Part shown: one piece after another, positions 5,828 to 58,348 of the stretch
Layout of the letters: every line of letters starts with the position of its first letter
Position numbering within the stretch: position 1 is the first letter of the stretch
Assembly: GCF_001971585.1 (NCBI RefSeq)
Contig: NZ_CP019323.1
Location: forward strand, 1,416,053-1,480,052
Reading direction: 5' to 3'
DNA length: 64,000 bases
Source: Companilactobacillus allii
GTDB lineage: Bacteria > Bacillota > Bacilli > Lactobacillales > Lactobacillaceae
The notes under the pieces: generated by a model
The model's database searches: none
Told to the model about the DNA's origin: nothing
The model's input: the letters and a program-made list of their open reading frames with translations, nothing else
Made by a program: the position numbers and the translations under genes

Positions 5828-5967
5828 AAGTTGTACAAAACACGTTCAGTTTTCGAATATGGTACAAAAAAGAAGCCGGTATTTACGCAAGTAAATGTCG
5901 ACTTCTTTTTGGTTGATGGAGAAAATTGTGTTTTGGCACGTGTTTTTATTACAAATTTGAGTGAGAG
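5828..5967 (+). repeat. Structured repeat element, copy R1
   Basis: Member of the six-copy family described in the findings. The inner hairpin runs about 5871-5908, with a GCAA tetraloop at 5887-5890 closed by TTTAC/GTAAA. The outer stem is the weakest of the family: CAAAACAC (5836-5843) pairs with GTGTTTTG (5928-5935), with degenerate extension. The conserved TTTTCGA (5850-5856), GGAGAAAATTGTG (5918-5930) and tail AATTTGAGT (5953-5961) are present. It lies between convergent tagO and yigZ and could stop transcription from both sides, since A and T runs flank the inner stem. Confidence 0.8.
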
Positions 5968-5971
5968 AGTT

Positions 5972-6601
5972 TTAAATAGACACTTGTTTATAAGTTTGCT
6001 CGATCTCATTAAATACTATTTGATTTTGAAATTGGTTAGTAATATCTTGAATTATTTCTTGATGCTTTGCCAGATCTAGATATACATTGCAAGTGACATC
6101 AGTAGAGAAGGTCTTATTTTCTAGAATGATCTGCTCATTTTTGGCATAGTTTTCAAACTTGTCGTATAGGTGATAAGGAATGGTCAATTCATATCCTTGC
6201 TGTAAACGATTTTCAACTAGGCCAATTTCTTTAATGGCATCGGATGTAGTGGATGAGTAGGCACGAATTAGTCCTCCAGCACCTAATTTTATGCCACCAA
6301 AATATCTAGTTACGACTGCAGTAACGTTTTTTAAGTCGTTTTGTTGTAAGACATTCAGGATTGGGGAACCCGCAGTCCCACTAGGTTCTCCATCATCTGA
6401 CATGCGTTCTATTTCAACGTTTTCAAGAACTATAAAGGCCGTGCAATTATGTGTAGCACCAGATTCTTGCTTTTGGATTTTTGAAATAAATTGTTTGGCT
6501 TCATCTTCAGAAAAAGTTTGAGCAATGTGTGCAATGAAACGAGACTTTTTTATATCTTTTTCAAACGCTCCTGTTTGAGCAATTGTTTTATAATTTTGCA
6601 A
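5972..6601 (-). CDS. YigZ/IMPACT family protein
   Basis: The 209-residue protein has the UPF0029/IMPACT N-terminal domain with its signature DDGEPSGTAGSPIL and VVTRYFGGIKLGAGGLIRAY, and a shorter C-terminal DUF1949-like alpha/beta domain. E. coli YigZ and B. subtilis YvyE belong here; the biochemical role in bacteria is not settled, and eukaryotic IMPACT modulates the Gcn2 stress kinase. The start is TTG at 6601-6599, with AAAGGA nearby on the minus strand. It is convergent with tagO and divergent from comFA with only 28 bases between them. In many lactobacilli a YigZ gene also sits beside comFA. Confidence 0.9.
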   Translation of the reverse strand: MQNYKTIAQTGAFEKDIKKSRFIAHIAQTFSEDEAKQFISKIQKQESGATHNCTAFIVLENVEIERMSDDGEPSGTAGSPILNVLQQNDLKNVTAVVTRYFGGIKLGAGGLIRAYSSTTSDAIKEIGLVENRLQQGYELTIPYHLYDKFENYAKNEQIILENKTFSTDVTCNVYLDLAKHQEIIQDITNQFQNQIVFNEIEQTYKQVSI

Positions 6602-6629
6602 ATTTGTTATTCCTTTCGTAATTTAATTT

Positions 6630-7925
6630 ATGAATAATTTAAATGAATATTTAGGTGGTCGTATTTTTAATACGACGGAATTGAATGATGAACAGATAGA
6701 ATTATTGCTTAGTATCGGTGGCAAAAAAATAAATGCTATAGAGAATAATGTTTGCCAGAGATGCTTAATGATGGTGAAAAATAATTCAAAACTTATTTAT
6801 TGTCGAAGTTGTATCAACCTCGGCAGAATCAGTGAGCGTGACCAATTGATAATTTCACCAGCAGAAGCACTATTTAGCGATAGGAGTCCATCTTTACAGT
6901 GGTCCGGTGAATTAACCATTATGCAGAAAAAAGCTTCTGAGGAGCTTATTATGGCATATAATACGGGAGTTAATCACTTAGTTTGGGCGGTTACTGGTGC
7001 CGGTAAGACTGAAATGACGTATCCATTGATCGAACGTATTATTTCTGATGGTAAACGTGTGGCTTTTTGTTCTCCTAGAGTTGATGTTTGTATTGAACTA
7101 TTCCCTAGAATTCAAGCAGCCTTCCCACAAGTTAGTATTGGATTATTCCATGGTAAAAGTGAAGAAACGTATTCATTGACACAAATAATGATCTCCACTG
7201 TGCATCAACTAATAAAATTTGATAAGGCTTTTGATGTGTTGATAATAGACGAAGTGGATTCATATCCATTAGCGGGGAATGAAATGCTTGAAAAGGCCAT
7301 TTATAAAGCAAAGAGACCAACAGGTAATTTAGTATTTTTGTCAGCAACACCGCCAAAAAGGTTGATAAAAGATGTTGAAAACAAAAAAATCACTATATCT
7401 AAATTGTATCAAAGATTCCATACTTATCCATTACCACAGCCTAAGTGCCACATGTTATTCAAATCTAGTGATTATTTTAGGATAAATCCAAGAATAAAAT
7501 TAAAAATAAAAAAATTGATAGAAAATAATGAACGGTTTATGTTATTTTTTCCAAAAATTCCAGCGATGTTAAAATTTTCTGAGAGTTTAAAAATCATTTT
7601 TCCTGAATTAAGTTTTGTGGACGTTAGTTCAAAGGACGAACAAAGATTGGATAAGGTTTCTCAATTTAGAAAAAAAGAAATTCAAGCTATTTTAACGACT
7701 ACTATCTTGGAACGTGGAGTAACTTTTAAGAATATTACCGTGATAGTGATCGATGCGGATGCTAAAGAATTTTCTAAAACTGCACTAATTCAAATAGCTG
7801 GTAGAGCCGGTCGTGCTAAGGAATCTTATGATGATGAGGTGCATTTCTATTATCAAAGTTACAATCGACAAGTTAAACAGGCTTGTTCTGAAATAAAATA
7901 TCTGAATCGACAGGCCAGCAAATGA
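6630..7925 (+). CDS. comFA: Late competence DNA helicase ComFA
   Basis: ComFA is the DEAD-box-like ATPase that drives single-stranded DNA import during transformation. The 431-residue protein has the zinc-binding cysteines C42, C45, C58 and C61, Walker A TGAGKT (122-127), the DEVD Walker B box (207-210), SAT motif (LSATPP) and the C-terminal helicase motif QIAGRAGR. The frame is intact. No clear ribosome site precedes ATG 6630, unlike most genes here, which fits low translation or special induction. It overlaps comFC by 4 nt (ATGA), so the two are translationally coupled. Regulation by a ComX/SigH-type sigma factor is likely from family knowledge but I cannot point to a secure box. Confidence 0.94.
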   Translation: MNNLNEYLGGRIFNTTELNDEQIELLLSIGGKKINAIENNVCQRCLMMVKNNSKLIYCRSCINLGRISERDQLIISPAEALFSDRSPSLQWSGELTIMQKKASEELIMAYNTGVNHLVWAVTGAGKTEMTYPLIERIISDGKRVAFCSPRVDVCIELFPRIQAAFPQVSIGLFHGKSEETYSLTQIMISTVHQLIKFDKAFDVLIIDEVDSYPLAGNEMLEKAIYKAKRPTGNLVFLSATPPKRLIKDVENKKITISKLYQRFHTYPLPQPKCHMLFKSSDYFRINPRIKLKIKKLIENNERFMLFFPKIPAMLKFSESLKIIFPELSFVDVSSKDEQRLDKVSQFRKKEIQAILTTTILERGVTFKNITVIVIDADAKEFSKTALIQIAGRAGRAKESYDDEVHFYYQSYNRQVKQACSEIKYLNRQASK

Positions 7926-8602
7926 GATGTCTAAATTGTGGTAATAAAAGCATAAACGAGTTGAATTTAAAAATTATTTTTGGGTTTGAAGATTTCGTTC
8001 CAGATAATCTATGTGAACTTTGCAGAAGTCAGCTAAATCCACTCAATTATGATGAAGGTTGTATAAGATGTTATAAGAAAAATGATAGTAATATTTGCGA
8101 AGATTGCTTGTTGTGGGATAAAAAATATAATATTATCAATTGTCATCAGGCTTTGTTTGAGTATAATCAATTCATACATAGTTATTTTAAAAACTATAAA
8201 TGGTATGGCGATATTTTATTAGCAGAGTTGTTTTCTAAAGATTTATACAATTGGTCTAAATCTAATAAATTTGATTTAATTACATATATTCCTGCAAGCA
8301 ACGGACATTTAGAGGCAAGAGGCTTTGATCCTGTATGGGAAATGTATCATAAGGTGTTTGACTTAACGTCAATGCTTGTAAAAATTGATGCAGATAAACC
8401 TCAAGCTCAAAAGAACCGCTATGAAAGACTTCAAACGCCGCAAACCTTTTATTTTCATCCTGATAGACTTGATATACCAAGCGATAGTAGTATTTTGATT
8501 CTTGACGATGTTTATACTACAGGCCGAACTTTAATGCACGCGAGACAGGCTCTTGAGATAGTTGGTTTCAATAATATTTGTACTTTTTCATTATCTAGGT
8601 AG
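7922..8602 (+). CDS. comFC: ComFC competence phosphoribosyltransferase-like protein
   Basis: ComFC works with ComFA in DNA uptake. The 226-residue protein has the N-terminal double zinc finger (C3-C6, C31-C34, C47-C50, plus a further CEDC pair) and a type I phosphoribosyltransferase fold ending in the PRPP-binding loop DDVYTTGRT (195-203). The sequence is intact. It overlaps comFA by 4 nt and its stop codon abuts the cre box of the next promoter, so no terminator separates it from hpf. Confidence 0.93.
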   Translation: MRCLNCGNKSINELNLKIIFGFEDFVPDNLCELCRSQLNPLNYDEGCIRCYKKNDSNICEDCLLWDKKYNIINCHQALFEYNQFIHSYFKNYKWYGDILLAELFSKDLYNWSKSNKFDLITYIPASNGHLEARGFDPVWEMYHKVFDLTSMLVKIDADKPQAQKNRYERLQTPQTFYFHPDRLDIPSDSSILILDDVYTTGRTLMHARQALEIVGFNNICTFSLSR

Positions 8603-8639
8603 TGAAACCGTTGTCACATTCGCGGAAGAATTATATAAT
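8603..8639 (+). promoter_or_regulatory. hpf promoter with CcpA (cre) box over the -35
   Basis: TGAAACCGTTGTCA (8603-8616) matches the cre consensus TGNAANCGNWWNCA with a single mismatch. Its last six bases are the -35 TTGTCA (8611-8616), followed by -10 TATAAT (8634-8639) at exactly 17 bp. The cre starts one base after the comFC stop codon. CcpA bound here should repress hpf on preferred sugars. Confidence 0.85.
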
Positions 8640-8696
8640 TAGAGAGAAGAGTAGATACACTCTTTAATTTCCTATCGTCGAAAAGGAGAGATTCTT

Positions 8697-9245
8697 ATGT
8701 TAACAATTAATGTTCGTGGTGAAAATATCGAGGTAACACAATCGATTCGTGACTATGTTGAAAAAAGATTGTCAAAGATGGAAAAATATTTTAGTGACGG
8801 CAGCAATCCAATTGCTCACGTTAATTTGAAGACTTATCCATCAAAAGGTACAAAAGTCGAAGTAACTATTCCACTTCCATACATGACTCTTAGAGCTGAG
8901 GAAATAAATGATGACATGTATGCTGGAGTCGACTTAGTAATTGATAAGCTTGAAAGACAAGTTAAGAAGTTTAAGACACGTGTAAATCGTAAGGGACGTG
9001 AATCAGGTAGTATTAAGGATATTCCTTTGGATGATGTATCTGCTGAGGACGCAAAAGAAGACGAGACACAAATCGTTAGAACAAAGCGCCTATCATTGAA
9101 ACCTATGGACGCTGAAGAAGCAGTTCTACAAATGGAAATGCTTGGACATGAATTCTTCATTTTCGAAGATGCCGAAACAAATGGCGCAAGCATCGTATAT
9201 AAACGTAACGATGGTAAATATGGTTTGATCGAAACAAACGAATAG
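8697..9245 (+). CDS. hpf: Ribosome hibernation promoting factor, long form
   Basis: Long HPF (YfiA/YvyD type) dimerises 70S ribosomes into inactive 100S particles in stationary phase. The 182-residue length and two-part layout fit the long form: an N-terminal S30AE domain (about 1-100, ITVRGENIEVT-like start) and a C-terminal dimerisation domain (about 125-182, RTKRLSLKPMDAEEAVLQM and the HEFFIF segment). AAAGGAGAG precedes ATG 8697. The promoter overlaps a cre box, and a perfect-palindrome terminator follows, so it is transcribed alone from its own promoter in addition to possible comF readthrough. Confidence 0.96.
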   Translation: MLTINVRGENIEVTQSIRDYVEKRLSKMEKYFSDGSNPIAHVNLKTYPSKGTKVEVTIPLPYMTLRAEEINDDMYAGVDLVIDKLERQVKKFKTRVNRKGRESGSIKDIPLDDVSAEDAKEDETQIVRTKRLSLKPMDAEEAVLQMEMLGHEFFIFEDAETNGASIVYKRNDGKYGLIETNE

Positions 9246-9253
9246 AAAATATG

Positions 9254-9281
9254 AGCCAAGACAATTGTCTTGGCTTTTTTT
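9254..9281 (+). terminator. hpf terminator
   Basis: Bases 9254-9275 form a perfect 22-bp palindrome with arms AGCCAAGACA, followed by six T. Confidence 0.88.
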
Positions 9282-9437
9282 GTTGAACAGAAATTTATTG
9301 TGCAAAATACACCAAAAATATACAAATATGGTGTAGTATATTAACTCTGGAAGACTCTATATAATTCTGAGTTTAAAACAATCTAAAAAAATGCTACTAT
9401 TAAAAGTATGTTTAGTATTTAGGAGAGATTATTACAT

Positions 9438-12959: not shown

Positions 12960-12960
12960 T

Positions 12961-13624: not shown

Positions 13625-15274
13625 ATGAGGAAAAAATTAGGGCCATTAATTGCAATCGCTATTACTGTAATAATCTTTATCGTACTGTCGGTATTTGCCG
13701 ATAATATCTTGTCTCATTCTCAAAATGAAATGTTTGCGGATGAAACTGTGTCTTATCGAGAGCTCAAAAAGAATCATTCACAGTCCCAAGCAGCCAAATA
13801 TGCCAATTTGTCATATATTGATACTACAAAACGTGATACTTCCTTGGAAAAAGGTGCATATGATTTGATTCATCGTGGACACTTAACTCCTGGACAAAAT
13901 TATGTGACAAAAGATACCTTTGGAACTAGAACAATGTATTACATGCATGGATCTAGTAAGTATGTTGTTGCAAAGAAATATAAGAGACTTTGGAATCAAG
14001 ATACGTTCTCATTTTTGATGGTTGCATTCATTTACTTTATTGTGACTGACTTTATGATTCTATTCTTTTACCGTAAGCGTCAGATTCTTAGCAAGGATAT
14101 CAAGAGTGTTACTGAGAATTTGAAGCGGGTTAGAAAAAACAAAGAAATGGCATCACTGATTCTTTCACCAGATGATGAGTTATATGAGTTGGTTGAACAA
14201 ACTAATGATATTAGTATGGATATTAATGAATTGCGTGATAATGCTAGATTACGTGAAAGACGATTCAAGGGTTTGATAGGACATTTGCCAATTGGCGTTA
14301 TGCTGTTGAACTCACAAGGTGAAGTCTTGATGCACAATCAGGCAATGGCAGGATTGTTGGATGAGAATATTTCCAACGAAATACATCCCTTTATTGAAGA
14401 TGTTAAAACGTATAGTTTGAGTCGTATGATTGAACATACCTTGCGTAAGAACAAGAATCATCATCGTGAGATTCAACTAGTTGGTAATTCACAAAAGTAC
14501 GTTGACGCCAACGTCATTCGCTTGGTTCATTCACGTGAAGACTATGATCAACAAGTTCTGGTTATTTTATATGATTTGACTGAAAGTAGAAGATTTGAAC
14601 AGATTCAAGTGGATTTCGTTAATAATGTCAGCCATGAATTAAAGACTCCAATTACTTCAATCGAAGGGTTCTCTGAGACATTATTGAATGGTGCCAAAGA
14701 TGATCCAGAGAAATTGGATCATTTCTTACATATCATTAATGATGAAAGTGTTCGTTTGACGGAACTTATTCAAGATATTCTATCGTTATCTAAAGTTAAA
14801 AAGGATGCCCAAAAGGCGCAACTTGTTAACATGGAAGAAGACGTTGACAAGATATTAGAGCGCATGGAGATCCCAATTAAGAAGCATGGTATTCATGTTA
14901 AAAAAGAATTCTTTGGTAATGAGAATATAACTATTAACAAAGAAAAGATAAACTTGATACTTAGCAACCTGATTAAAAATGCTATTTCATATAACAAAGA
15001 AAATGGAACTATTGCTATGGAGTTCCATCATGATGAAATAGAAAACCGTATCAGATTTGTTATTCAAGATACTGGTATTGGAATTTCTGACGATGAACAA
15101 GATCGTGTATTTGAACGATTTTATCGTGTGGATAAATCAAGAAGCTTGGAAACAGGTGGTACTGGACTTGGTTTAGCTATTGTCAAAGAAACAGTTGATA
15201 ATATGAATGGGACAATAAATATGGAGTCTCATAAGGGTCTGGGCTCCACATTTACAGTAAATATTCCTTTATAA
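13625..15274 (+). CDS. phoR: PhoR-type sensor histidine kinase
   Basis: Membrane sensor kinase of 549 residues, partner of the preceding regulator (start one base after its stop). Visible parts in order: membrane helix at about 7-27, extracytoplasmic segment to about 120, second helix at about 125-150, HAMP-like linker, PAS-like segment (about 215-320, with HLPIGVMLLN), HisKA domain with phospho-acceptor H337 in SHELKTP, and HATPase_c with N box (NLIKNAISYNKENG), G1 box (DTGIGIS) and G2 box (GGTGLGLAIV). The architecture and the pst operon just downstream fit PhoR. A terminator follows at 15286. Confidence 0.87.
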   Translation: MRKKLGPLIAIAITVIIFIVLSVFADNILSHSQNEMFADETVSYRELKKNHSQSQAAKYANLSYIDTTKRDTSLEKGAYDLIHRGHLTPGQNYVTKDTFGTRTMYYMHGSSKYVVAKKYKRLWNQDTFSFLMVAFIYFIVTDFMILFFYRKRQILSKDIKSVTENLKRVRKNKEMASLILSPDDELYELVEQTNDISMDINELRDNARLRERRFKGLIGHLPIGVMLLNSQGEVLMHNQAMAGLLDENISNEIHPFIEDVKTYSLSRMIEHTLRKNKNHHREIQLVGNSQKYVDANVIRLVHSREDYDQQVLVILYDLTESRRFEQIQVDFVNNVSHELKTPITSIEGFSETLLNGAKDDPEKLDHFLHIINDESVRLTELIQDILSLSKVKKDAQKAQLVNMEEDVDKILERMEIPIKKHGIHVKKEFFGNENITINKEKINLILSNLIKNAISYNKENGTIAMEFHHDEIENRIRFVIQDTGIGISDDEQDRVFERFYRVDKSRSLETGGTGLGLAIVKETVDNMNGTINMESHKGLGSTFTVNIPL

Positions 15275-15285
15275 TAATTATTTGG

Positions 15286-15322
15286 GATTGTGACAAAGAT
15301 TTTTAGGTCACAATCTTTTTTT
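15286..15322 (+). terminator. phoPR terminator
   Basis: GATTGTGAC (15286-15294) pairs perfectly with GTCACAATC (15307-15315), followed by seven T. Confidence 0.88.
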
Positions 15323-15487
15323 GTGCAAAAAATCCTTATGGTAAAACAAAAAGCTCTTTCAATTACCTTGATTGTTGCAGAAATGTTACATAATGTTTAG
15401 TTTCTGTTACAGAATCCAAGATTCATTGAATATGGTCTTTTTAAATAGTAATCTGGTACGTAGATACTTATATAGGGGGATCTTTCA

Positions 15488-16456
15488 ATGAATAAAAAAG
15501 TGCTGTTAACAAGCGTTGCCGTTCTTAACACACTAGCTGCCGTCGCTGCTCCAACGGTTGCTTCCGCTGCCACGGACACTACAAGTGTTCCGGAAAGTTC
15601 AGAACAAGTAAATAATTCAGATCAAAATAATAATGATACAGATGTAATTTCAGGATCAGACGTTCAAAAGGCTGATACAACAGTTGCTCATACAGCTACT
15701 GTTCAATCAGAATCTTCAACAAAGGCTATCGTTCAAGCTACAAGTAGTGGTGTAACATCATCACAACAACAACAATTCTTGTCAGAAGCTGTTCCAATGG
15801 CTCAACAAGCTGCTTCAAAGTATAATTTATATACTTCAGTTATGTTAGCTCAAGCTATTCTTGAAAGTGGATGGGGTGCTTCAACTCTAGCTACTCAAGG
15901 CCATAACTTGTTTGGTATCAAGGGTGACTATAATGGTGCCTACGTATCAATGCCGACTTCTGAATGGAGTTCATCACAAGGTTGGTATACAATTTATGCC
16001 AACTTTAGAAAATATCCAAGTTATTATGAATCATTCTTAGATAATGGTGATAAGTTACGTAATGGTGTTTCATGGAATTCTAGCTACTATTCAGGTACAT
16101 GGAAAGAAAATACATCATCATATAAAGATGCTACCGCTTGGTTGCAAGGCAGATATGCTACTGCACCTAACTATGCTTCATCATTGAACAGCTTGATTTC
16201 AACATACAACTTGACTCAATATGATGGTAATGCAGAAACAAACAGTGGTTCTGACAATAATTCAGATACAGTACACGTAAATGCTACACCATACGCTAGA
16301 TTACAAGATAGCAATGGTAAAGAAGTTAAGAATCGTGCCTTAGCTACAAATACTGATTGGTATTTCAATAAGACTAAGACTGCTTCTGACGGTACTGTTT
16401 GGTATCATGTTGCAACTAACGAATGGGTTAGTGCAAGTGACATTTCAGTTAAATAA
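15488..16456 (+). CDS. Secreted N-acetylglucosaminidase (GH73) with C-terminal wall-binding domain
   Basis: Predicted cell-wall hydrolase of 322 residues that cleaves the glycan strand of peptidoglycan. It begins with a signal peptide (about 1-27, ending VASAA), then a Ser/Asn/Thr-rich linker to about 90, a GH73 glucosaminidase domain (about 92-250) with AQAILESGWG (catalytic Glu candidate), HNLFGIKG and NFRKYPSYYESF, and a C-terminal domain of about 60 residues (VHVNATPYARLQDSNGK ... WYHVATNEWVSASDI) that resembles the S-layer/SLAP-type wall-binding repeats of lactobacilli. AGGGGGATC precedes ATG 15488. It sits alone between terminator-bounded phoPR and pst; a role in phosphate-linked wall turnover would be speculation. 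Element R2 follows the stop. Confidence 0.88.
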   Translation: MNKKVLLTSVAVLNTLAAVAAPTVASAATDTTSVPESSEQVNNSDQNNNDTDVISGSDVQKADTTVAHTATVQSESSTKAIVQATSSGVTSSQQQQFLSEAVPMAQQAASKYNLYTSVMLAQAILESGWGASTLATQGHNLFGIKGDYNGAYVSMPTSEWSSSQGWYTIYANFRKYPSYYESFLDNGDKLRNGVSWNSSYYSGTWKENTSSYKDATAWLQGRYATAPNYASSLNSLISTYNLTQYDGNAETNSGSDNNSDTVHVNATPYARLQDSNGKEVKNRALATNTDWYFNKTKTASDGTVWYHVATNEWVSASDISVK

Positions 16457-16470: not shown

Positions 16471-16612
16471 AGAGCGTGGCAAAATGTGCTTAGCTTTCGA
16501 GTATAGTTGCGAAAAAAGTCCAGTATTTACGTAAGTAAATACTGGGCTTTTTTTGAACTAGACGGAGAAAATCGTGTTTTGTCACGCGTTTTTACTGCAA
16601 GTTTGAGTAGAA
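16471..16612 (+). repeat. Structured repeat element, copy R2
   Basis: The outer stem pairs GCGTGGCAAAATGTG (16474-16488) with the segment ending GTTTTGTCACGC at 16587, about 15 bp with some G-U pairs. The inner hairpin (about 16514-16552) carries GTATTTAC/GTAAATAC and a GTAA tetraloop at 16531-16534, flanked by A6 and T7. Conserved TTTCGAG (16496-16502), CGGAGAAAATCGTG and tail GCAAGTTTGAGTAG (16597-16610) are present. It starts 15 nt after the glucosaminidase stop and is a likely terminator before pstS. Confidence 0.85.
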
Positions 16613-36244: not shown

Positions 36245-37265
36245 GATAGTTCGTGTTGTAAAGGGACGTCGTCCAAAAGTAGTTGTTATAGGTGGGGGAA
36301 CTGGTTTACCAGTTGTATTAAACAGTTTAAGAAATAAAGATGCAGATATCACAGCTATTGTGACCGTTGCCGATGATGGTGGTTCGTCTGGTGTATTAAG
36401 AGATTACATCAACGTTGTTCCACCTGGGGACATTAGAAACGTTCTTGCATCTTTGTCAGATTTACCAAAGGTCGATTTGGATGTTTTCCAATATCGATTT
36501 AATAGTGACGATGACTTCTTCTCTGGTCATGCCATTGGTAATCTAATTATTGCTGCATTATCTGAAATGTCACCTAATATTTTTGACGCAGTTCAAGAAT
36601 TATCCAAAATGATGCGTGTTGATGGCCGAGTGTATCCAGCAAGTAACACGAAGTTGACCTTGAATGCGGAGTTCACTGATGGAACTACGATATCAGGTGA
36701 ACATGAAATAACTCACTCAGGTAAGCACGTTAAGCGTGTCTGGGTAACTAACTCAGATGAGCCAGACAAGACACCACAGTCGCTTTTACCAGTCGTAGCT
36801 TCAATTATGCAAGCAGATGTCGTGGTACTTGGACCTGGTAGTTTATTTACAAGTATTCTTCCTAATCTTATGATTGGAGACCTTGGTGAGGCAGTCCGTC
36901 AGACGCCTGCTGAAGTGGTCTATATTTGTAATATTATGACTCAGATCGGTGAGACTGAAGGTTTCACTGATGCTGACCATGTTAATGTTTTGAATGAACA
37001 TTTGGGTGGTAACTTCGTCGATACTGTACTTGTTAATACAAGACATGTCCCAGAAGGTTATATGGATCATAAGAAGTATGATGAATATGTCAGTCAAGTA
37101 AAATCGGATTTCCCAAGTTTGAGAAATATGGGATGTCGTGTTATTTCAGATGACTTCTTATCACTACATGATAATGGAGCCTTTCATGATGGAACTAAAA
37201 TTGGTCGTGAAATTTTGAATTTGGCATTTCAAGCCGGAAATAGAAAAAATGAGGTGAGACACTAG
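36231..37265 (+). CDS. yvcK: YvcK/CofD-like gluconeogenesis and morphogenesis factor
   Basis: A 344-residue UPF0052 protein with the nucleotide-binding GGGTG (21-25) and the ADDGGSSG and PPGDIRN motifs. In B. subtilis YvcK binds UDP-sugars and is needed for growth and shape on gluconeogenic carbon. ATG 36231 has AGAAGG 9 nt upstream, better spaced than the TTG at 36225; the gene overlaps rapZ by 14 nt and whiA by one base. Confidence 0.93.
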
Positions 37266-38197
37266 TGGCTTCTTACGCAAGTGAAGTAAAAAAGGAACTC
37301 ACTGGTTTAGAAGTTCATCCCGAACATGCCCGTGTAGAGCTATCTGCTTTACTGAGAATGAATGGTTCATTAAGTTTATACAACCATCAATTTGTTCTAA
37401 CGGCGCAAACGGAGAATCCTGCGATTGCTCGTAGGATTTTTTCACTCATTAAATTGCGTTATGGGATGGAATCAGAACTATTAGTTCGTAAAAAAATGAA
37501 GTTAAAAAAGAACAATCAATATCTTGTTCGTCTTAAACATGATACAAATAAAGTCTTACAGGACTTAGGTATTTTGGATGAGACTGGTTTATCGATCAAT
37601 ACTGATGTACCCGAAGATATTCTTGATGAAGATCAAAGGATGCGCTCATATCTACGTGGAGCATTTCTAGCTACAGGTAGTGTCAATAACCCAGAGACAT
37701 CAAGATATCATTTGGAAATTTACTCATTATACGAGACACACAATGATGGAATCGCTCAGATGATGAATCATTTTAATTTGAATGCTCGAGTTACACAACG
37801 CAGAAATGGCTATATTGTTTATTTGAAGGAAGCAGAAAAAATTGCTGACTTCTTACAAGTAATTGGGGCCACTAATGCAATGTTAAAATTCGAAGATATT
37901 AGAATCGTGCGTGACATGCGTAATTCAGTTAATCGTTTGGTAAACTGTGAGAACGCTAATATTAATAAGACAGTCGCAGCAGCACAAAGACAAGTTGATA
38001 ATATTAAGCATCTTCAAAGTACAGTTGGCTTAGATTCTTTGCCAGCTAAGTTACAAGAAATCGCCGTATTAAGACTTGAGAACCCAGATGTTTCATTAAA
38101 AGAGCTCAGTGAAATGGTACCAAGTGGTGCCATTTCAAAGTCAGGTATTAACCATAGACTACGTAAGCTTAATCAAATCGCTGAAGAAGCCGTGTAG
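37265..38197 (+). CDS. whiA: DNA-binding protein WhiA
   Basis: A 310-residue protein with an N-terminal LAGLIDADG-homing-endonuclease-like fold (about 1-210, including [17 protein letters not shown]) and a C-terminal HTH ([25 protein letters not shown]). WhiA affects division and chromosome segregation in Firmicutes and sporulation in actinomycetes. GTG 37265 shares a base with the yvcK stop; GAGGTGAG is upstream. Element R3 begins 7 nt after the stop. Confidence 0.95.
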
Positions 38198-38204: not shown

Positions 38205-38345
38205 GAGAGTGTGAAAATGCACGGATAATTTTCGAGCATTAACGTAAATAATTTCGGTATTCACGGAAGTGAATATCGGAATTATTTTTGTTAAGCGGAA
38301 AAAATTGTGCATTTTCACACGTTTTCACTGCAAGTTTGAGTAGAA
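38205..38345 (+). repeat. Structured repeat element, copy R3
   Basis: The outer stem is a perfect 14 bp: GTGTGAAAATGCAC (38209-38222) with GTGCATTTTCACAC (38307-38320). The inner hairpin (about 38247-38288) has a GGAA tetraloop at 38265-38268 closed by TTCAC/GTGAA. Conserved TTTTCGAG (38230-38237), CGGAAAAAATTGTG (38296-38309) and tail GCAAGTTTGAGTAG (38330-38343) are present. It is about 92 percent identical by eye to R6. It lies between convergent whiA and the ABC permease. Confidence 0.88.
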
Positions 38346-38375: not shown

Positions 38376-39488
38376 TTAAACCTTACGATAACGTCTCAAA
38401 CCAACGATATTTAAGATAGTTAATACTACTAAAATCCCCAGCAGAACAGATATATCAAACCCCAATGACCAGATACTTGTGCCTTTCATAATGATATCTG
38501 ACACAGCATCACCGGAATATTTAATAGGGATGACATATGAAATATCACTGACCCATTTGGCCATGGAATCCAACGGAACGATTCCGGAGAAGAATACTTG
38601 AGGAATAACCACAATGGGAATGAATTGCATCATTTGAAATTCTGATTTGGCAAAAGTCGAAAGTAAAATACCAAATGCTAGAGCTACCAAGGCTAAGATT
38701 AAGTTGATTATGATAACTGAGATTATGTTACCTTTAATTTGAATCCCTAACATCCATACAGTAGCAAGGACAATAATCACAGTTTGAACGACTGCAAGGA
38801 TTCCGTAACTCAACATATATCCAAAGACGATTTCAAAACGTTTGACTGGAGTAGCCAATAATCGATCTAGTGTTCCACTTGTACGTTCTTTGAGAAGAGC
38901 CATCCCAGAAATTAAGAATACGAAGAAGAATACAAAGAATCCCATTAATACTGGAAGGATTTTGTCAAAGAATCCAGTATCCTTGTTACCATAAACGTAG
39001 TGATTAGTTATTTTTGGCGTTGAAATTTTTGTATTTATTGGAACAGTTTGTCCGGTTAGTTTGGCCAAGGCTGTAGTAGTTGTCACAAGCTGTTTCTTCA
39101 TTTTACTGACGTTGGTTTTGGTCATTGAAGCATTGAAAACTTGTTTAACAGCAGCAGTTTTAGTTGAATCGGTATTAGCATAAGTTAAGTCATAATTGTC
39201 ATTCTTTTTTTGAATGATGGCATCAATTGTGTCGTTATTCAAAGCCCTTTTAGCAGCTTTTTTATTACTGTATTTATAAACATCCACATGTTTCATATCA
39301 TTTACATTATTATATAAAGCACTTGGTAAATCTACGGTGGCAATGTTCACATTAGTGGATGAGTTAGAGTTGAAAATGAAACTCAATAACAATAAAATCA
39401 CGACCGGTGCAATAAACATTAGTGCTAGTGTCCTTTTATCTCTTATGAGTTCTTTTAGAACTCTAGTCATAATTGCAATTGTACGCAT
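38376..39488 (-). CDS. ABC-2 type exporter permease
   Basis: Membrane subunit of an ABC exporter, 370 residues: one N-terminal helix (about 18-38), a large extracytoplasmic part (about 40-170) rich in Lys, Asn and Thr, then five to six helices from about 178 to 365 with LKERTSGTLDRLLATPVKR, the ABC-2 coupling segment. It starts at 39488, overlapping the ATPase stop by one base, so both are translated together. Architecture matches drug or antimicrobial peptide exporters of the YhgE/LinR-like ABC-2 group; the substrate is unknown. Confidence 0.88.
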   Translation of the reverse strand: MRTIAIMTRVLKELIRDKRTLALMFIAPVVILLLLSFIFNSNSSTNVNIATVDLPSALYNNVNDMKHVDVYKYSNKKAAKRALNNDTIDAIIQKKNDNYDLTYANTDSTKTAAVKQVFNASMTKTNVSKMKKQLVTTTTALAKLTGQTVPINTKISTPKITNHYVYGNKDTGFFDKILPVLMGFFVFFFVFLISGMALLKERTSGTLDRLLATPVKRFEIVFGYMLSYGILAVVQTVIIVLATVWMLGIQIKGNIISVIIINLILALVALAFGILLSTFAKSEFQMMQFIPIVVIPQVFFSGIVPLDSMAKWVSDISYVIPIKYSGDAVSDIIMKGTSIWSLGFDISVLLGILVVLTILNIVGLRRYRKV

Positions 39489-40301: not shown

Positions 40302-40430
40302 AAGAGCGTGACAGAATACGTTCAGTTTTCATATATAAGCCAAAAAACGATATTTACGTGAGTAAATATCGCTTTTTAGATTTAAATTGAGAGAATTGTA
40401 TTTTGACACGCGTTTTCACTGAAATTTACG
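40302..40430 (+). repeat. Structured repeat element, copy R4
   Basis: The outer stem pairs GCGTGACAGAATAC (40306-40319) with GTATTTTGACACGC (40398-40411), 13 of 14 positions. The inner hairpin (about 40341-40377) has a GTGA tetraloop at 40358-40361 closed by TTTAC/GTAAA. The tail is short (TTTTCACTGAAATTTA). By its GNRA loop and motif order it is on the plus strand, although both flanking genes are on the minus strand; it is the only copy not following a sense stop codon. Confidence 0.8.
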
Positions 40431-42132
40431 ATCTATAAATAACATAACCAATCAGTGCAATGAAAAGAACAAATGAAAACCAAATCATATATGGATAAAT
40501 ATGAGGATAATAACTGGCTACAGAAATATTAACAGTGTTAGCTTTTGAAGGGTTATAAATAGCTATGAATCCTAAGTCGTCAGTGGTCCATTTAACTGAC
40601 TTGTTGTTTACTTTGATGTCATATTTAAGTGATGAATAGCCGAATATTGGTAATTGGACATTGCCACGTTTGATGTTTTTGCCACGATAATTAACACTGT
40701 TTGTCGTAGAGCTAGTTTTCTTTAGATTTGTTGTTTTGTTATTTTGACTAGCAGTGTGATGAATCAATAAATTCTGAACTTCAGGTGAAAGAAATTGGCC
40801 ATTTGAGTTAGGATCAATAGCAACTTTATCTGGAGCATAATCAGGTATCAGAGTTCGTAGTATTTTCTCACTGTTGATGCCACTGGAAGTGAGTTTAACA
40901 TCTGTATTAGGTGATAGATCAGTCTTTGTTTTGGCAGTCATAGTTGTTAAAGTAGTTCCGTGATTATAGATATAGTTTGTCGTGACTTGTATTGCTGCTG
41001 ACAAGGAGAGTATAGACATCAATACTAGGATATACTTACTAGTTTGAGCCTTGAAGTTCTCTAATAACAAAATAATTGGGACGATACCTAAAAATAGAGC
41101 AAATCTCCAACTTGATTCTTGGAAGTTATTGAGAATCGGAATGTGATTAAAAATTGCCCAAGGAGTTAAATCAGTGCTAAATATTACTAGAACTGATTCC
41201 ACTAATAACCAAGGAAGAAGTTTGTTTGTTTTTTTCTTATCGAATCCAACCAATACTATCAACAACACAATCAATGATAAAGTTGAAAAACTGGTTTTGG
41301 CATTCCATTTAACATTGGTGAATAGTATTGATATTGGGTCAGCAATCACATTCCCCTTACCAAATGGTGGCAATAGTCCAGTTTTTGAAATAGTCATTAG
41401 TCGATAGATTAATGGAAGACACAATACCACAGCGATTAATCCTGAAATAACTAGGTTAATAAAGGGAATAAGGGTTCTATTTTTAATTGAACAAACAATT
41501 AAGAAGACACCTGCGACCATGGAGATCGCAACGGCACTCAATAAATGTGAATTGATAACTATAGTCATTAAAAGTCCGACTTTAATTGCCAGAATATAGT
41601 CAATTCTTTTACTTTCGAGAATATCTTTAAAAGTAAAGATCAGTGGAAAAGAAAAGGCTAGAACAATTGCCACTCCCGGTTGAAACTCGGTTGTAATGCC
41701 TCTAAGAACAGCACCAGAATACGTATATATCAATGCTGCCATACTTGAATTCAAACTGCTGTAGCGCTTATTTAAAGATAAAAATGTTACAACAAAAGTC
41801 ATCATCGCAATCATAACTTTTATAGCGATGATTTGATGAATTGGAGATAACATATCTGTAATAAAAATAAATGGCCAAAGTGTGAAATCAGGATACATAC
41901 CATTGACAGCTTGACCTGAAGAAAAGAAGGTATCAAAGTTCAACCAACTTGGTAAATTACCGTTAATAAAAGCTTGGCGGATTTCATAAATTCTTTGCGT
42001 GTGGAAAAAAGTATCACTTCCAGCAATCATATAATTAAGATGAAATTGCCAAAGCATCCAGATGATGATTGAGATAAAGAACAGTAAAATAACTGAAATA
42101 GTTTTTTTGTTAATATGATTTTGAGTATTCAT
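40426..42132 (-). CDS. YfhO-like polytopic membrane protein
   Basis: A 568-residue membrane protein with about 11 helices in the first 390 residues, a Ser/Thr/Asn-rich extracytoplasmic region (about 390-540) and a final helix. The GSDTFFHTQRIYEIRQAF start and NINGMYPDFTLWP-like stretch resemble the YfhO / 6-pyruvoyl-tetrahydropterin-synthase-related membrane proteins, a group with a GT-C-like fold that in B. subtilis and lactobacilli acts in lipoteichoic acid glycosylation. I cannot identify catalytic residues securely. ATG 42132 has GGGGAG directly upstream; the in-frame codon at 42144 overlaps that site. It follows the MFS gene by 18 bases. Confidence 0.7.
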   Translation of the reverse strand: MNTQNHINKKTISVILLFFISIIIWMLWQFHLNYMIAGSDTFFHTQRIYEIRQAFINGNLPSWLNFDTFFSSGQAVNGMYPDFTLWPFIFITDMLSPIHQIIAIKVMIAMMTFVVTFLSLNKRYSSLNSSMAALIYTYSGAVLRGITTEFQPGVAIVLAFSFPLIFTFKDILESKRIDYILAIKVGLLMTIVINSHLLSAVAISMVAGVFLIVCSIKNRTLIPFINLVISGLIAVVLCLPLIYRLMTISKTGLLPPFGKGNVIADPISILFTNVKWNAKTSFSTLSLIVLLIVLVGFDKKKTNKLLPWLLVESVLVIFSTDLTPWAIFNHIPILNNFQESSWRFALFLGIVPIILLLENFKAQTSKYILVLMSILSLSAAIQVTTNYIYNHGTTLTTMTAKTKTDLSPNTDVKLTSSGINSEKILRTLIPDYAPDKVAIDPNSNGQFLSPEVQNLLIHHTASQNNKTTNLKKTSSTTNSVNYRGKNIKRGNVQLPIFGYSSLKYDIKVNNKSVKWTTDDLGFIAIYNPSKANTVNISVASYYPHIYPYMIWFSFVLFIALIGYVIYRS

Positions 42133-42150
42133 GTTTCTCCCCAATGAAGA

Positions 42151-43658: not shown

Positions 43659-43790
43659 TACTCAAACTTGTAGCGCAAACGCGAGCTAAGACACAATTTC
43701 TTCCGTATAACGCAAAAAAATGGTCTTCACTTTCGTGAAGGCCATTTTTTAGTGTTATTACTCGGAAATTAACCGTGTCTTAGCTCGCTC
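43659..43790 (-). repeat. Structured repeat element, copy R5 (minus strand)
   Basis: Perfect 14-bp outer arms GCGAGCTAAGACAC (43681-43694) and GTGTCTTAGCTCGC (43775-43788). Their sequence is largely different from the other copies while pairing is complete. The inner hairpin (about 43712-43752) has TTTC at 43731-43734, which reads GAAA on the minus strand. The minus strand also shows the TTTCCGAG and CGGAAGAAATTGTG motifs and the tail CAAGTTTGAGTA (43659-43670). It starts immediately after the clpP stop codon, in the direction of clpP transcription. Confidence 0.87.
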
Positions 43791-44377
43791 TATTTTGCGG
43801 GGCTATTTGTCATGATTTCATCAATCAAACCGTAATCTTTGGCTTCTTGTGATGTCATGTAATTGTCACGATCGGTATCCTTTTGAAGTTTTTCAAATGA
43901 TTGACCGGAGTTATCAGCTAACATGTGGTTCAATCTCTTTCTTGTCTTCAAAATCTCTTGGGCAGCAATTTCAATTTCTGTTTGTTGACCTTGAGCACCA
44001 CCTAATGGTTGGTGAATAAGGATTGTTGAATTTGGTAGGGCAAAACGTTTGCCTTTTGTACCTGATGAAAGGATAACTGAACCCATTGAGGCTGCTAATC
44101 CAGTTGCGATTGTTGTAACATCAGATTTAACGAAATTCATTGTATCAACAATAGCCAATCCGTCGGTAACTGAACCACCGGGTGAGTTGATATACATTGA
44201 AATATCTTTCTCTGAGTCTTGAGCATCAAGGAATAGTAATTCAGCAATAACTGTATTAGCCATTTGGCTGTTAACTTCACCTGATAACATAATAATTCTA
44301 TCTTTTAGTAATCTTGAATAAATATCATAGGCACGTTCGCCACGTGAGCTTTGTTCAATAACTGTAGGAACTAACAT
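43790..44377 (-). CDS. clpP: ATP-dependent Clp protease proteolytic subunit
   Basis: ClpP forms the tetradecameric peptidase barrel fed by ClpX, ClpC or ClpE. The 195-residue protein has the catalytic triad S97 (GLAASMGS), H122 (LIHQPLGG) and D171 (TDRDNYMT). TAGGAGGC precedes ATG 44377 on the minus strand. The promoter carries a CIRCE element, and R5 directly follows the stop codon as probable terminator. Confidence 0.97.
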
Positions 44378-53570: not shown

Positions 53571-53576
53571 CTGTAT

Positions 53577-53894
53577 CAACAAAACAAATTCGTCCATAAA
53601 CCGTTGAGATGGAGATCAAGACTATTGTGCATGTAAAGAGAGTTTCCGTTGGTGAGAGTGCAATCAAACGCAGATAGTTAAATGGACCATCGAGGGTTCT
53701 CTCAAAAATTTTTAACTGAATCAGTACAGAGAAACGTCAGGCATACGTAAGTTGTCGGAAGGGTGATTGCCCTTTGCTAAGAGTAATGGATTGTAGTGTT
53801 ATTTGTTATACACTACCAGTCTATTAAAATAAGGTGGCACCGCGGAAATTCCGTCCTTAAACTTTTAATTAAGTTTATGGGCGGATTTTTTTTG
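53577..53894 (+). ncRNA. T-box riboswitch, tryptophan-specific
   Basis: A leader of about 318 nt that senses uncharged tRNA. Stem I spans about 53635-53705 (arms GAGAG/CTCTC) with the specifier codon TGG (Trp) at 53683-53685. The conserved T-box AAGGTGGCACCGCGG is at 53831-53845; its bulge TGGC pairs with an acceptor end GCCA, matching the G discriminator expected of tRNA-Trp. The terminator TCCGTCC (53850-53856) / GGGCGGA with T8 follows; the T-box segment overlaps the antiterminator side. Uncharged tRNA-Trp should allow transcription of trpDCFBA. This leader fills the gap 53504-53922. Confidence 0.93.
53850..53893 (+). terminator. Regulated terminator of the T-box
   Basis: TCCGTCC pairs with GGGCGGA (one G-U), extended by TTAAACTT/AAGTTTA inside, followed by T8. 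Confidence 0.88.
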
Positions 53895-53922
53895 TGATCA
53901 AATTGAAGCGGAGGAACCAAAA

Positions 53923-54942
53923 ATGATTGAAAATGCTATTAAAGAATTAGTTAACGGAAAGAATCTAACTTTTAAAGAAACGAATCAAGTAATTGACGAG
54001 ATCATGAGTGGGGAAACAAGTGATATTCAAATTTCGAGTTTCCTAACAGCCTTGTCGATTAGAAAAGAAACAGTTGAAGAAATAGCTGGTGCAGCTAATG
54101 CAATGCGTGCCCATGCCTTAGAGTTTGAAGCTGATGAACCAGTACTTGAAATTGTCGGAACTGGTGGTGATCATTCGAATTCATTCAATATTTCAACGAC
54201 TTCAGCATTAGTAGTTTCAGCAACCGGGATTCCAGTTGCTAAGCATGGTAATCGTGCTGCATCTTCGAAAAGCGGTGCCGCAGATGTACTTGAAGCATTA
54301 GGTATCCAAATCAATATTGATCCTAAGCAAAGTGAGTCAGTATTGAACAAAATAGGTATTTGTTTTCTTTATGCACAGGAATATCACAGGGCAATGAAGT
54401 ATGTTGCTCCAATCAGAAAAGAGCTTGGAATTAGAACGTTATTCAATATACTTGGACCACTAGCCAATCCAGCCCATGCCACATCACAATTATTAGGAGT
54501 ATACGATGAAGAATTAGTCGTTTCCATGGCCGAGGTTTTGAGAAAACTTGGTGTCAAAAATGTCACAGTCATTCATGGTCAAGATGGATTCGACGAGGTT
54601 TCAGCCTCTGCCTCAACTACCGTGGCAGAAATCAAAAATGGCGAGATTAATAAATATGAAATAACCCCAGAAGAATTTGGAATTAAGCGTTGTAAAAAAG
54701 ATGAAGTTATCGGTGGAACTCCGATTGAGAATGCACAAATTACTAGAGATATTTTAAATGGAAAAGTTGGTGCCAAACGAGATATTGTTCTGATGAATGC
54801 AGGAGTTGCTATTCATACTGCTAATCCATCACTAAGTATTGCTAAAGGAATTGAAATGGCAAGACAAGTTATTGACGACGGATCAGCCAAAAGAAAATTG
54901 GAAGAATTCATTAATCTAACTCAAGTTGGCATGGTCGCATGA
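53923..54942 (+). CDS. trpD: Anthranilate phosphoribosyltransferase
   Basis: TrpD joins anthranilate and PRPP in tryptophan synthesis. The 339-residue protein has the PRPP-binding GTGGD motif (about 77-81), [31 protein letters not shown] and the conserved [15 protein letters not shown]. No glutamine amidotransferase (TrpG) domain is fused. CGGAGGA precedes ATG 53923. It is the first gene after the T-box; the anthranilate synthase genes trpE and trpG that normally come first are missing from the operon. Confidence 0.96.
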
Positions 54943-55673
54943 TCTTAGATGATCTGGTTGAATCCACCAAGAAGAGGATTGCTGATGAGAAGAGCAATAA
55001 TAATATTCAAGAAATTATAGATAAGTTTTTAAAGTCAAAAATGGGATTCATTGGTGAAGTAAAGCATGCATCTCCATCAAAAGGTGAAATCGTTAAAGAC
55101 TTCCCGTATATACAAATTGCAAAAGAATATTCAAATGCCGGAATTGATGCCATTTCAGTATTGACTGAACCCACGTACTTCCAAGGTAAATTAGAATATT
55201 TATCTGATATAGCAAAGAATGTTGATGTACCGGTATTGAGAAAGGACTTTGTGATCGATCCATATATGATTTATCAAGCCAAGTTTGCTGGCGCAAAAAT
55301 AATTTTGTTGATCGTTTCAATTTTGACTCCAGAAAAGTTGAAACAATTCCAAAATTTGGCTAATGAATTGGATCTAGCAGCTATTGTGGAAGTCCATTCA
55401 ACAGAAGAATTACAAATCGCCTTAGATTCTGGTGCAAGAATCATTGGAGTCAATAATCGTAATTTAAAAGATTTCACGGTTGATTTGAATAATAGCTTGA
55501 AATTACGGCCATTGGTTCCATCTCAAATACCGTTTATTGCTGAAAGTGGCATCAAGACGGTTGAAGATATTAAGTTATTAAAAGCAGCGAATATCAATGA
55601 AGTATTGATCGGCGAGACTTTTATGAAGGCCGAAGACAAGTCATTGATTATTAGAGAATTCAAAGAAGCATGA
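54939..55673 (+). CDS. trpC: Indole-3-glycerol phosphate synthase
   Basis: TrpC closes the indole ring to form indole-3-glycerol phosphate. The 244-residue TIM barrel has [11 protein letters not shown] (catalytic Lys), [40 protein letters not shown] and AESGI motifs. It is slightly shorter at the N-terminus than the usual 255-260 residues. It overlaps trpD by 4 nt (ATGA). Confidence 0.95.
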
Positions 55674-55677
55674 TAGT

Positions 55678-56244
55678 ATGACAAAAATTAAAATATGTGG
55701 ATTGATGACTATAGAAGATATTGATGCAGTGAATCAAGCCAAGCCTGATTTTGCAGGATTCATTTTTGCAGGTGGCAGACATCATATCGACTTAGATCAA
55801 GCAATTAAATTAAGAGAACATTTGGATCCACGAATAATCAGTGTTGGAGTGTTCGTTGACGCTCCAATCGAGGAAATACTTAAGGCCGTGAATAGTGGGG
55901 CAATATCAATTGTCCAACTCCATGGCAATGAGTCAGAAGAGGTAGTTGATTATTTGCATGATAAGAATATAAAGGTTATCCAAGTATTTAACCCCACCGA
56001 TGAAAAGTTCAATACTGGCGCTGACTACACAATGTTAGATAGTGATAGTGGTGAAATATTGGATTGGAAGAATTTGTTGATAATTCCGGATATTTTAGCT
56101 GGATCAATTAATTCAGCTAATGTTGATAAAGCAATTAAGATAGTAAAACCCAAAATAATCGATGTTTCGCGTGGTGTTGAAACTAACGGAAAAAAAGATA
56201 TTAACAAGATAAGACAAATCGTAAACGAAGTACATAATTCTTAA
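55678..56244 (+). CDS. trpF: Phosphoribosylanthranilate isomerase
   Basis: TrpF isomerises phosphoribosylanthranilate to CdRP. The 188-residue TIM barrel starts with KIKICGLMT (catalytic Cys), and has [25 protein letters not shown] and DVSRGVET. It is somewhat shorter than typical (about 200), mainly in the central loops. It begins 4 bases after trpC. Confidence 0.94.
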
Positions 56245-56257
56245 GGAGTGTTCAACT

Positions 56258-57466
56258 ATGAAAGAAATGCAAAAAAAGAGTCAAGAGTCTCATTATTATG
56301 GTGAATTTGGAGGACAATTCATTCCTGAAACTTTAATGACGGCACTAAATGCAGTATCTAAGGCGTATGACAAATACAAAGATGATCCAGACTTTTTAGA
56401 TGAATTTCATACGTTATTAAGAGATTACGCTAATCGACCATCGCTTCTATATTATGCAAAGAATATGACAGAGGACTTAGGCGGTGCCAAGATTTATTTT
56501 AAACGAGAGGATTTGAATCACACTGGCGCTCACAAAATTAATAATGTTATTGGACAAGCATTGATTGCCAAACGTATGGGGAAGACTAGATTGATTGCTG
56601 AAACAGGTGCTGGACAACATGGAGTCGCTACAGCAACTATTGCCGCATTGTTTGGGATGGAATGTGAAATCTATATGGGAAAAATAGACACAGAACGCCA
56701 AAAACTCAATGTCTATCGTATGGAATTACTTGGTGCAAAGGTCCATCCAGTTACAAGTGGTTCAATGGTTCTAAAAGATGCTGTTAATGCAGCCTTACAA
56801 GCATGGACTAAGCGAATCGATGATACGTTTTACGTTATGGGTTCTGCTGTAGGGCCATACCCATATCCAGAAATGGTACATGACTTTCAAAGTGTCATAA
56901 GTAAAGAGTCTAAACAACAAATCTTGGCTGATGAAGGAAGACTTCCTGATGCAATAGTAGCCTGTGTCGGTGGTGGAAGTAACGCAATCGGGAGTTTTGC
57001 CCAATATATTGATGATAAAAATGTTGAGTTAATTGGCTGTGAAGCTGCAGGTAAAGGTGTTGATACTGACCAAACTGCTGCTACGATCGAACGTGGGTCG
57101 ACTGGTATATTTCACGGGATGAAATCACTCTTTCTACAAGATAAAGATGGGCAGATCGATAAGGTATATTCGATCTCTGCAGGTCTCGACTATCCCGGTG
57201 TTGGTCCAGAACACGCTCATCTAGCTATTACTAAACGTGCTAAATACGTGGGTATAACAGACGATGAAGCTGTCGATGCTTTTGAATATATTGCCAAAAC
57301 AGAAGGAATAATCGCTGCAATCGAGAGTTGTCATGCAGTGGCCTACGTTAGGAAACTAGCTCCAACTATGTCAAAGGACAAAATAATTATCTGTACATTA
57401 TCTGGTCGTGGTGATAAAGATGTTGCCGCAATTGCAAAATATAGGGGGAAAGATATCGATGAATAA
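56258..57466 (+). CDS. trpB: Tryptophan synthase beta chain
   Basis: TrpB condenses indole with serine using pyridoxal phosphate. The 402-residue protein has the PLP lysine in [10 protein letters not shown], the AETGAGQHG loop, GGGSNAIG phosphate-binding motif and ESCHAVAY near the end. TAAGGAGTG precedes ATG 56258. It overlaps trpA by 8 nt. Confidence 0.97.
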
Positions 57467-58211
57467 ATTAGAAGAAGTATTTAAAAATAAAAAAGCTTTC
57501 ATTCCATTCGTTGTAGCAGATGATCCTAATTTTGATGAAACGGTGGCTAACGTTTTAACATTAGCCGATAATGGCGCTGATATTATTGAATTGGGTATTC
57601 CTTTTTCTGATCCGGTAGCCGATGGTCCAATTATCCAAAAAGCTGATCTTCGTGCGTTCAGTGCTGGAGTTAATACAGATGTTGTTTTTGATATTGTTGA
57701 AAAAATTCGAGAATCAACACAGGTACCGATTATTTTTCTTACCTATACTAATATTGTTTATAAGTATGGTTATGAAAACTTCTGTCGTAAATGTTCAGAG
57801 TTAAACATCAGCGGATTAGTGATCCCGGATCTGCCATTAGAGGAACAAGATGAATTACGTGAAATTAGTGATTCATATGATATTTCATTGATTCAATTGA
57901 TTGCACCAACATCTGGGAAACGTGTTGCTAAAATTGCCTCTCAGGCCAAAGGCTTCATTTATATGGTATCTTCAATAGGCGTTACCGGGAAAAGAGAAGA
58001 TTTTTCCAATGAATTAGGAAGTACTATAGAAGAGATTAGAAAAGTTACGAATGTTCCGATTGCCATTGGATTTGGGATCCATTCAGTTCAACAGGCCAAA
58101 GACCTGTCACAAATCGCCGACGGAATTATTATTGGTAGTGCTGTTGTTGAGGTAATTAATAAAGGTGAGAATTTAGCTAAATATTCTCAGTTGATCAGTT
58201 CAGCTATTTAA
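57459..58211 (+). CDS. trpA: Tryptophan synthase alpha chain
   Basis: TrpA cleaves indole-3-glycerol phosphate and channels indole to TrpB. The 250-residue TIM barrel keeps both catalytic acids: Glu in [10 protein letters not shown] and Asp in [11 protein letters not shown] 57459 follows AGGGGGAAAG inside the end of trpB; the upstream in-frame codons lie within trpB. Element R6 directly follows the stop codon. Confidence 0.96.
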
Positions 58212-58348
58212 GAGTGTGAAAATGCACGGGTAATTTCCGAGCATTAACGAAAATAATTTCGGTATTCACGAAAGTGAATGTCGAAATTATTTTTGTTAGG
58301 CGGAAGAAATTGTGCATTTTCACACGTTTTCACTGCACGTTTGAGTAC
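58211..58348 (+). repeat. Structured repeat element, copy R6
   Basis: Perfect 14-bp outer stem GTGTGAAAATGCAC (58214-58227) with GTGCATTTTCACAC (58312-58325). The inner hairpin (about 58252-58293) has a GAAA tetraloop at 58270-58273 closed by TTCAC/GTGAA. Conserved CCGAGCATTAACG, CGGAAGAAATTGTG and tail TTTGAGTA are present. It starts at the trpA stop codon and is probably the trp operon terminator. Near-identical to R3. Confidence 0.88.

Follow-up and report, generated by a model that had tools for sequence, protein, structure and literature searches.

Hairpin elements of the window and their conserved plan

A 64,000-nucleotide (nt) stretch of the Companilactobacillus allii chromosome (contig NZ_CP019323.1, positions 1,416,053 to 1,480,052 of the forward strand; hereafter the window) was found to carry six copies, R1 to R6, of a hairpin-forming repeat, five of them at the 3' end of an open reading frame (ORF) on the same strand. 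The source genome (2.53 Mb, 2 contigs) is labelled G000 in the comparisons below, and its genes were called crudely as longest ORFs. R1 (5828..5967, +), a subtype A copy with a diverged start, begins 5 nt past the same-strand stop, lies between the convergent ORFs 4694-5821(+) and 5972-6601(-), and scored 124.0 bits against a covariance model built from the six copies. R2 (16471..16612, +; 152.1 bits) is downstream of ORF 15488-16456(+) and starts 14 nt past the stop. R3 (38205..38345, +; 163.4 bits) starts 8 nt past a same-strand stop and is flanked by the convergent ORFs 37265-38197(+) and 38376-39488(-). The antisense exception is R4 (40302..40430, +; 123.8 bits), the 3' end of which adjoins the stop of the minus-strand ORF 40426-42144(-), at an assigned distance of 10 nt. 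R5 (43659..43790, -; 148.7 bits) overlaps the same-strand stop at an offset of -2, its leading AG completing the TAG stop of ORF 43790-44377(-). R6 (58211..58348, +; 164.0 bits) has an offset of -1, with one A common to the element and the TAA stop of ORF 57408-58211(+). R6 is followed at 58349..58377 (+) by an imperfect second stem and a T run, read from the sequence and similar to other subtype A tails, which may serve as a terminator.

A first-pass annotation had proposed that these six elements share one hairpin plan, and the folds computed for R1, R2 and the other four copies bore this out, including the coordinates and orientations. On the sense strand each element formed one long imperfect hairpin of -34.7 to -60.0 kcal/mol, and the opposite strands gave -29.9 to -60.4 kcal/mol. 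The accompanying statement that five of the six start 0 to 15 nt past a sense stop was accurate for R1, R2 and R3 but not for R5 and R6, which overlap their stops.

Read by eye across the Lactobacillaceae, the unit of about 140 nt extends from AGAGYG, at or just past the stop codon, to CRCGTTT. Between these ends lie, in order, a copy-specific arm, a segment close to GYTTAGCTTCTGAGCATTARC, a variable apical hairpin, the segment GYTAAGCGGAAGAAGYTG and an arm matching the first. The core is conserved and asymmetric, with UGAGCAUUARC on the 5' side, GYUAAGCGGAAG on the 3' side, and a bulged GA and a bulged A on the 5' side. The sequence of the outer stem differs copy by copy, and two subtypes, A and B, were distinguished by core and tail. 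Internal-loop segments flagged as conserved among the six copies proved to be conserved across many genera as well. The GNRA tetraloop noted in all six was indeed present in each of them, but only 65 of 111 apical loops genome-wide fit GNRA, and this loop was therefore rejected as a defining trait of the family.

The proposal that covariation maintains the outer stem was upheld in three alignments. In a sequence-only MAFFT alignment of the six window copies, 92.2% of cells were paired and 21 of 50 pairs had changed on both sides. None of 500 shuffles matched either the paired share or the double-changed count, 14 of 500 matched the number of pair types, and pairing fell to 38-55% when the partners were slid. 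A model-fitted alignment of 111 rows of G000 from 100 sources out of 145 loci and the window (one row being a reverse-strand echo) again had 92.2% of cells paired, a share that no shuffle reached (0 of 500) and that dropped to 42-52% on sliding; 39 of 49 pairs were double-changed, a count equalled or exceeded in 1 of 500 shuffles. A third, also model-fitted, comprised 108 rows of many genera from 77 of 361 loci, seven of the rows being echoes, and had 44 of 49 pairs double-changed and 87.9% of cells paired. With two constitutive G.U columns removed, G.U cells outnumbered A.C cells in both model-fitted alignments (316 versus 174 in G000; 439 versus 179 in the many-genera set). This excess fits the sense strand as the folding strand, although model-fitted alignments lean the same way.

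Copy number, placement behind stop codons and turnover

Spread of the repeat within the genome, as the first-pass annotation had supposed, was evident from the copy number. The covariance model gave at least 148 matches in G000 at an expectation value (E) of ≤1, among the best 150 of 1301 candidates, the weakest listed being fragments; a BLAST search with R3 alone gave 70 matches at E≤10, with reverse-strand echoes among them. Within the genus, 34 of 36 genomes had matches, 863 in sum, with at most the best 83 candidates scored per genome and echoes possibly included. Two element-rich relatives were G012, with 90 matches of which at least 10 were reverse-strand echoes, and G032, with 77. When 11 candidates per genome were scored under strict filters, the Lactobacillaceae gave matches at E≤1e-5 in 109 of 251 genomes, representing 20 of 40 genera. 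A scan of named genomes found at least 120 stretches, and the 80 loci listed were all from Lactobacillaceae and represented nine genera (Lapidilactobacillus, Levilactobacillus, Pediococcus, Loigolactobacillus, Latilactobacillus, Paucilactobacillus, Ligilactobacillus, Lactiplantibacillus and Companilactobacillus). Over the whole order, 14 of 198 genomes matched, six of them outside the Lactobacillaceae. The 13 loci from these six have the same plan with diverged sequence and are, judging from it, probably distant relatives of the family. Similarly built elements, some in tandem, were seen in another family of the order (loci L365-L369 and L374; genomes G344 and G384, family f9).

Two C. allii plasmids also matched. 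On NZ_CP099483.1 the annotated end of a MetQ/NlpA family gene (13688-16242) overlaps the start of the R3 match, so that this plasmid gene ends within the element as chromosomal host genes do. Plasmids queried with the elements of L194 and L369 yielded none, and no match was found in the phage collections INPHARED or, by exact pattern, IMG/VR.

The copies of G000 lie in sense orientation behind stop codons, consistent with the excess at gene 3' ends that had been predicted from the window. A same-strand ORF was present on the 5' side of 131 of the 148 copies; 53 of these overlap the stop, 64 start 0-20 nt past it and 14 are further off. For comparison, when the elements are excluded, a same-strand stop lies 0-20 nt upstream of 8.4% of the position and strand combinations in the intergenic DNA of the window. 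The commonest offset was -2 (37 copies), at which the AG of the element completes a TAG stop. By neighbour layout, 73 of the 148 copies are between convergent ORFs, 58 are in tandem layout, 14 have an antisense 5' neighbour and 3 have no 5' neighbour. Orientation followed replication less closely than it followed the genes, 107 copies being co-oriented with replication by a skew-based estimate with replichore borders set by eye, and replication-strand insertion is thus the weaker source for the orientation bias. Placement was similar in G012: of 30 listed copies, 29 have an ORF and 25 begin no more than 13 nt from a stop. In 14 of 20 loci drawn from nine genera, the position expected for the start of the element lay no more than 7 nt from the end of an ORF at least 130 codons long, and shorter ORFs were present at the other six.

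For every one of R1 to R6, a plain terminator stands in place of the element in one or more of the relatives compared, and gain or loss between sister species is thereby shown. Plain terminators were found in all four relatives compared at the R1 site (G012, G014, G024 and G013), in all four compared at the R5 site, and in both G012 and G014, the two compared, at the R6 site and (as a plain hairpin or terminator) at the R4 site. Among 30 genus loci compared by eye, the R2 element was present only in G000; most of the other loci have a plain hairpin and T run past the stop, a related divergent element occurs in G030, and members of a second hairpin family (below) in a few. The R3 site was compared in four relatives: it is occupied by a plain terminator in G014 and G013, by a divergent element placed past the stop and ahead of an intact terminator in G024, and by a short remnant followed by the terminator in G012.

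The same exchange was seen from G032. Thirteen of its gene ends were queried, one of which (L379) matched weakly and was omitted, as were four further weak matches, L422-L425. For the remaining 12 elements, G002 and G015 together supplied 24 orthologous ends. Read by eye, 14 of these have a plain terminator, three a sense element, two an inverted element in sense orientation to the convergent gene, three a member of the second hairpin family and one a remnant; one was unclear. The three sense elements could in part be old shared insertions. At sites that carry a plain terminator in a relative, G032 lacks the native stem, and the right junction of its element can fall in a T run (L380), which fits an insertion followed by deletion between T runs, if the events occurred in that order. 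Some elements lie past the stop but ahead of a native terminator that is still intact. Only four of 29 host genes of G012 were closely related to any of the 122 host genes of G000, with about 1.5 expected by our own estimate assuming 2,400 genes, and conserved position is accordingly not claimed as proof of function.

The second hairpin family is larger and also lies at gene 3' ends (L407, L406 and L414 in G002/G015; L165 and L168 in G011 and G010). Its core resembles GCTATGCGACCGGT...GAGCCAAGGTCTCGC... and its variable outer arms resemble the stem of the host terminator itself, as if it had been inserted in the terminator loop. Six loci of this family gave no Rfam match at E≤0.1.

Probable mobility, function and the origin of matched arms

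We consider it probable, though well short of certain, that the elements are a non-autonomous family of mobile repeats that act as structured hairpins of the 3' untranslated region, in the style of BOX, SPRITE and REP. Copies would insert between a stop codon and the native terminator; in Companilactobacillus, the T runs of the apical hairpin and tail would let them take over termination, after which a deletion between T runs could remove the native terminator. A further role, which we offer as a guess from the known behaviour of other hairpins, would be to shield the 3' end of the mRNA. The closer agreement of orientation with the genes than with replication was counted in favour of this explanation, together with the copy number, the placement at stops, the covariation, the turnover among relatives, the G.U excess, the T runs of G000 and the plasmid gene that ends within the element.

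The earlier suggestion of an RNA-level element serving as a terminator, stabilizer or regulator target stood up as regards covarying structure and sense placement at 3' ends, but not as regards a terminator function common to the family. A T run beside the apical hairpin, part of the architecture first described, was present in 89 of 111 rows of G000 and 29 of 34 further rows of the genus but outside the genus in only 24 of 74. The pattern of an intrinsic terminator, a GC-containing stem with a T run, was thus found in subtypes only, and termination appears to be an added role of some of these. In G000 the inner hairpin resembles a terminator acting in both directions, and a terminator scan of one stretch found terminator-like stems on both strands at R4 and R5. 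Termination as the function of the whole family was rejected, since 50 of the 74 rows outside the genus have no T run and some elements precede an intact terminator.

Several observations weigh against the mobile 3'-end hairpin explanation. In the stretch covered by the terminator scan, no terminator-like stem was detected at R3, and firing of an apical terminator would leave the 3' outer arm untranscribed, which sits badly with covariation of the outer arms at the RNA level. Termination is a role predicted from the sequence, and mRNA protection a presumed one. R5 is slightly more stable when folded on the other strand, and a longer, crudely called ORF encloses 11 of the 148 copies. Placement was looser in named genomes: of 102 elements found by regular expression, 75 had an ORF ending no more than 200 nt away, and for only 34 of these 75 was the distance 20 nt or less, in part owing to tandem arrays with a spacing of about 126 nt. 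Neither a target duplication nor an exact empty site came to light, the orthologous element-free sites being too diverged to show one. Finally, the changes in the outer arms are too concerted for ordinary slow compensatory evolution.

One alternative, which we regard as unlikely but serious, is that the elements are purely selfish DNA without host function, tolerated past stop codons where little is disrupted, with a sense bias arising from the insertion mechanism. Fast turnover, the poor conservation of host genes and the supply of stop codons by the elements (the 53 of 131 copies overlapping a stop) all suit it, and the authors who described BOX and SPRITE interpret their repeats in this way (PMC3049150). 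The strength of the sense bias and the conservation of the internal loops over many genera argue the other way, as does the absence of native terminators where the element sits in G000 and G032, by which hosts may come to depend on it.

The concerted arm changes were examined in 39 pairs of rows that differ at no more than 2 of about 80 centre positions; these pairs are not independent, as rows recur. Over the 14 pair positions of the 5' arm, 96 differences were counted in total, of which 86 were matched on the 3' arm, 4 stayed G.U and 6 broke the pair. Arms were identical in 7 of the 39 pairs. The elements L076 and L114:3048, for example, have identical centres and seven matched arm changes, and copies 841059 and 843349 have arms and tail in common and different apical hairpins. 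Of the 128 of 148 copies that could be parsed for downstream modules, 31 carry one to three extra 3' modules with the same arm within 3 mismatches; a stricter count gave 8 modules, each within 1 mismatch of the copy's own arm. Tandem 3' half-modules repeating the copy's own 3' arm were seen at G000:C1:91454, 298935, 953177 and 1315826, and whole elements in tandem at about 126-nt spacing at L218, L245, L284 and L285 of Lapidilactobacillus.

Taken together, the matched arm changes, the shared arms with differing hairpins and the repeated 3' modules show arms and centres behaving as separate modules, and where a copy repeats its own 3' arm, several downstream segments would be available to pair with the 5' arm. 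We favour recombination between copies combined with selection on pairing: recombination would reshuffle centres and arms, and selection would remove mismatched arms. The matched changes and the repeated 3' arms are also what would be expected if a mutational process, such as template switching in a quasi-palindrome or fold-back synthesis, kept the arms complementary without selection. This seems improbable, since such a process would erase the asymmetric internal loops unless these were selected, yet the loops are kept across genera. A more specific and quite doubtful proposal is that at each jump, with entry precisely at stop codons, the 3' arm is written in one step as a copy of the 5' arm by fold-back synthesis of a hairpin intermediate, so that the stem would diversify with each move around an unchanged core. 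If true, one-step rewriting of an arm would be an undescribed mode of movement for a bacterial repeat.

That the relevant fold is instead a single-stranded DNA hairpin recognized by a transposase or recombinase, as in IS200/IS605, REP/RAYT and attC, would accommodate outer arms left untranscribed by an inner terminator, bulged bases on one side (a feature of attC) and the tandem arrays and repeated 3' modules, but we think it very unlikely given that orientation tracks genes more than replication and that a Y1 transposase (PF01797) was present in 35 of the 109 genomes with the element and in 33 of the 142 without it, showing no association across all 251 (Fisher p=0.15). The element-rich G012 and G032 had no PF01797 match at E≤1e-10, and a Y1 link is therefore not supported; this comparison covered only Y1 enzymes.

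Relation to described repeats and significance

The repeat had not been recognized from its sequence as a named family, and database searches agreed with this. Rfam gave no match in the window, and in 11 family loci it gave four matches at E≤1, all below the gathering score, of which one was a T-box outside the element and three were read as chance. No paper on this repeat family was found among the hits listed by literature searches, one of them aimed at surveys of stem-loops and some others broad and surveyed in part, with subscription papers covered only to a small extent. The family thus appears as one for which we found no earlier description, akin in kind to BOX, SPRITE and REP.

REP and BIME elements, associated with RAYT, are palindromic and extragenic and often lie at gene 3' ends, as the present elements do. 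REPs are 20-40 bp (PMC3733652). In contrast, the present elements are about 140 nt and showed no Y1 association. MITEs are likewise short, non-coding, foldable and mobile. They have terminal inverted repeats and target duplications (PMC3049150), whereas only AGAGYG and CRCGTTT are constant in the present copies, the arms differ, and no duplication was seen at the diverged empty sites.

BOX elements of Streptococcus pneumoniae are also high-copy structured intergenic repeats with end modules that form a stem, and in 36 annotated genes the repeat forms the very 3' end of the gene and supplies its stop codon (PMC3049150). BOX repeats its middle module; the present family repeats the 3' module and has copy-specific arms. 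Homology to BOX was not supported, since the covariance model labelled R2 gave no match at E≤10 with default filters in eight loci found by the BOX primer pattern. SPRITE elements of S. pneumoniae are terminator-like, enriched near the 3' ends of convergent genes, and consist of an 18-bp duplex with a U-rich tract (PMC3049150); the present family, a longer two-stage hairpin with a conserved core, is set apart from them by description. Also set apart by description is Efa-1 of Enterococcus faecalis, an intergenic structured repeat of 163 nt that forms a pair of adjacent stem-loops (PMC2267715). The Lactobacillus family tabulated in that study, Lac-1 of L. johnsonii, is located in coding genes (PMC2267715).

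At the gene ends of lactobacilli, then, plain terminators and mobile hairpins replace each other. Since the repeats supply stop codons, recognizing the family would aid annotation. The joint change of both stem arms around a centre that does not change is a puzzle in itself, and hundreds of natural stem variants on one fixed core offer a test set for RNA structure, for the evolution of terminators and for the movement of small repeats.

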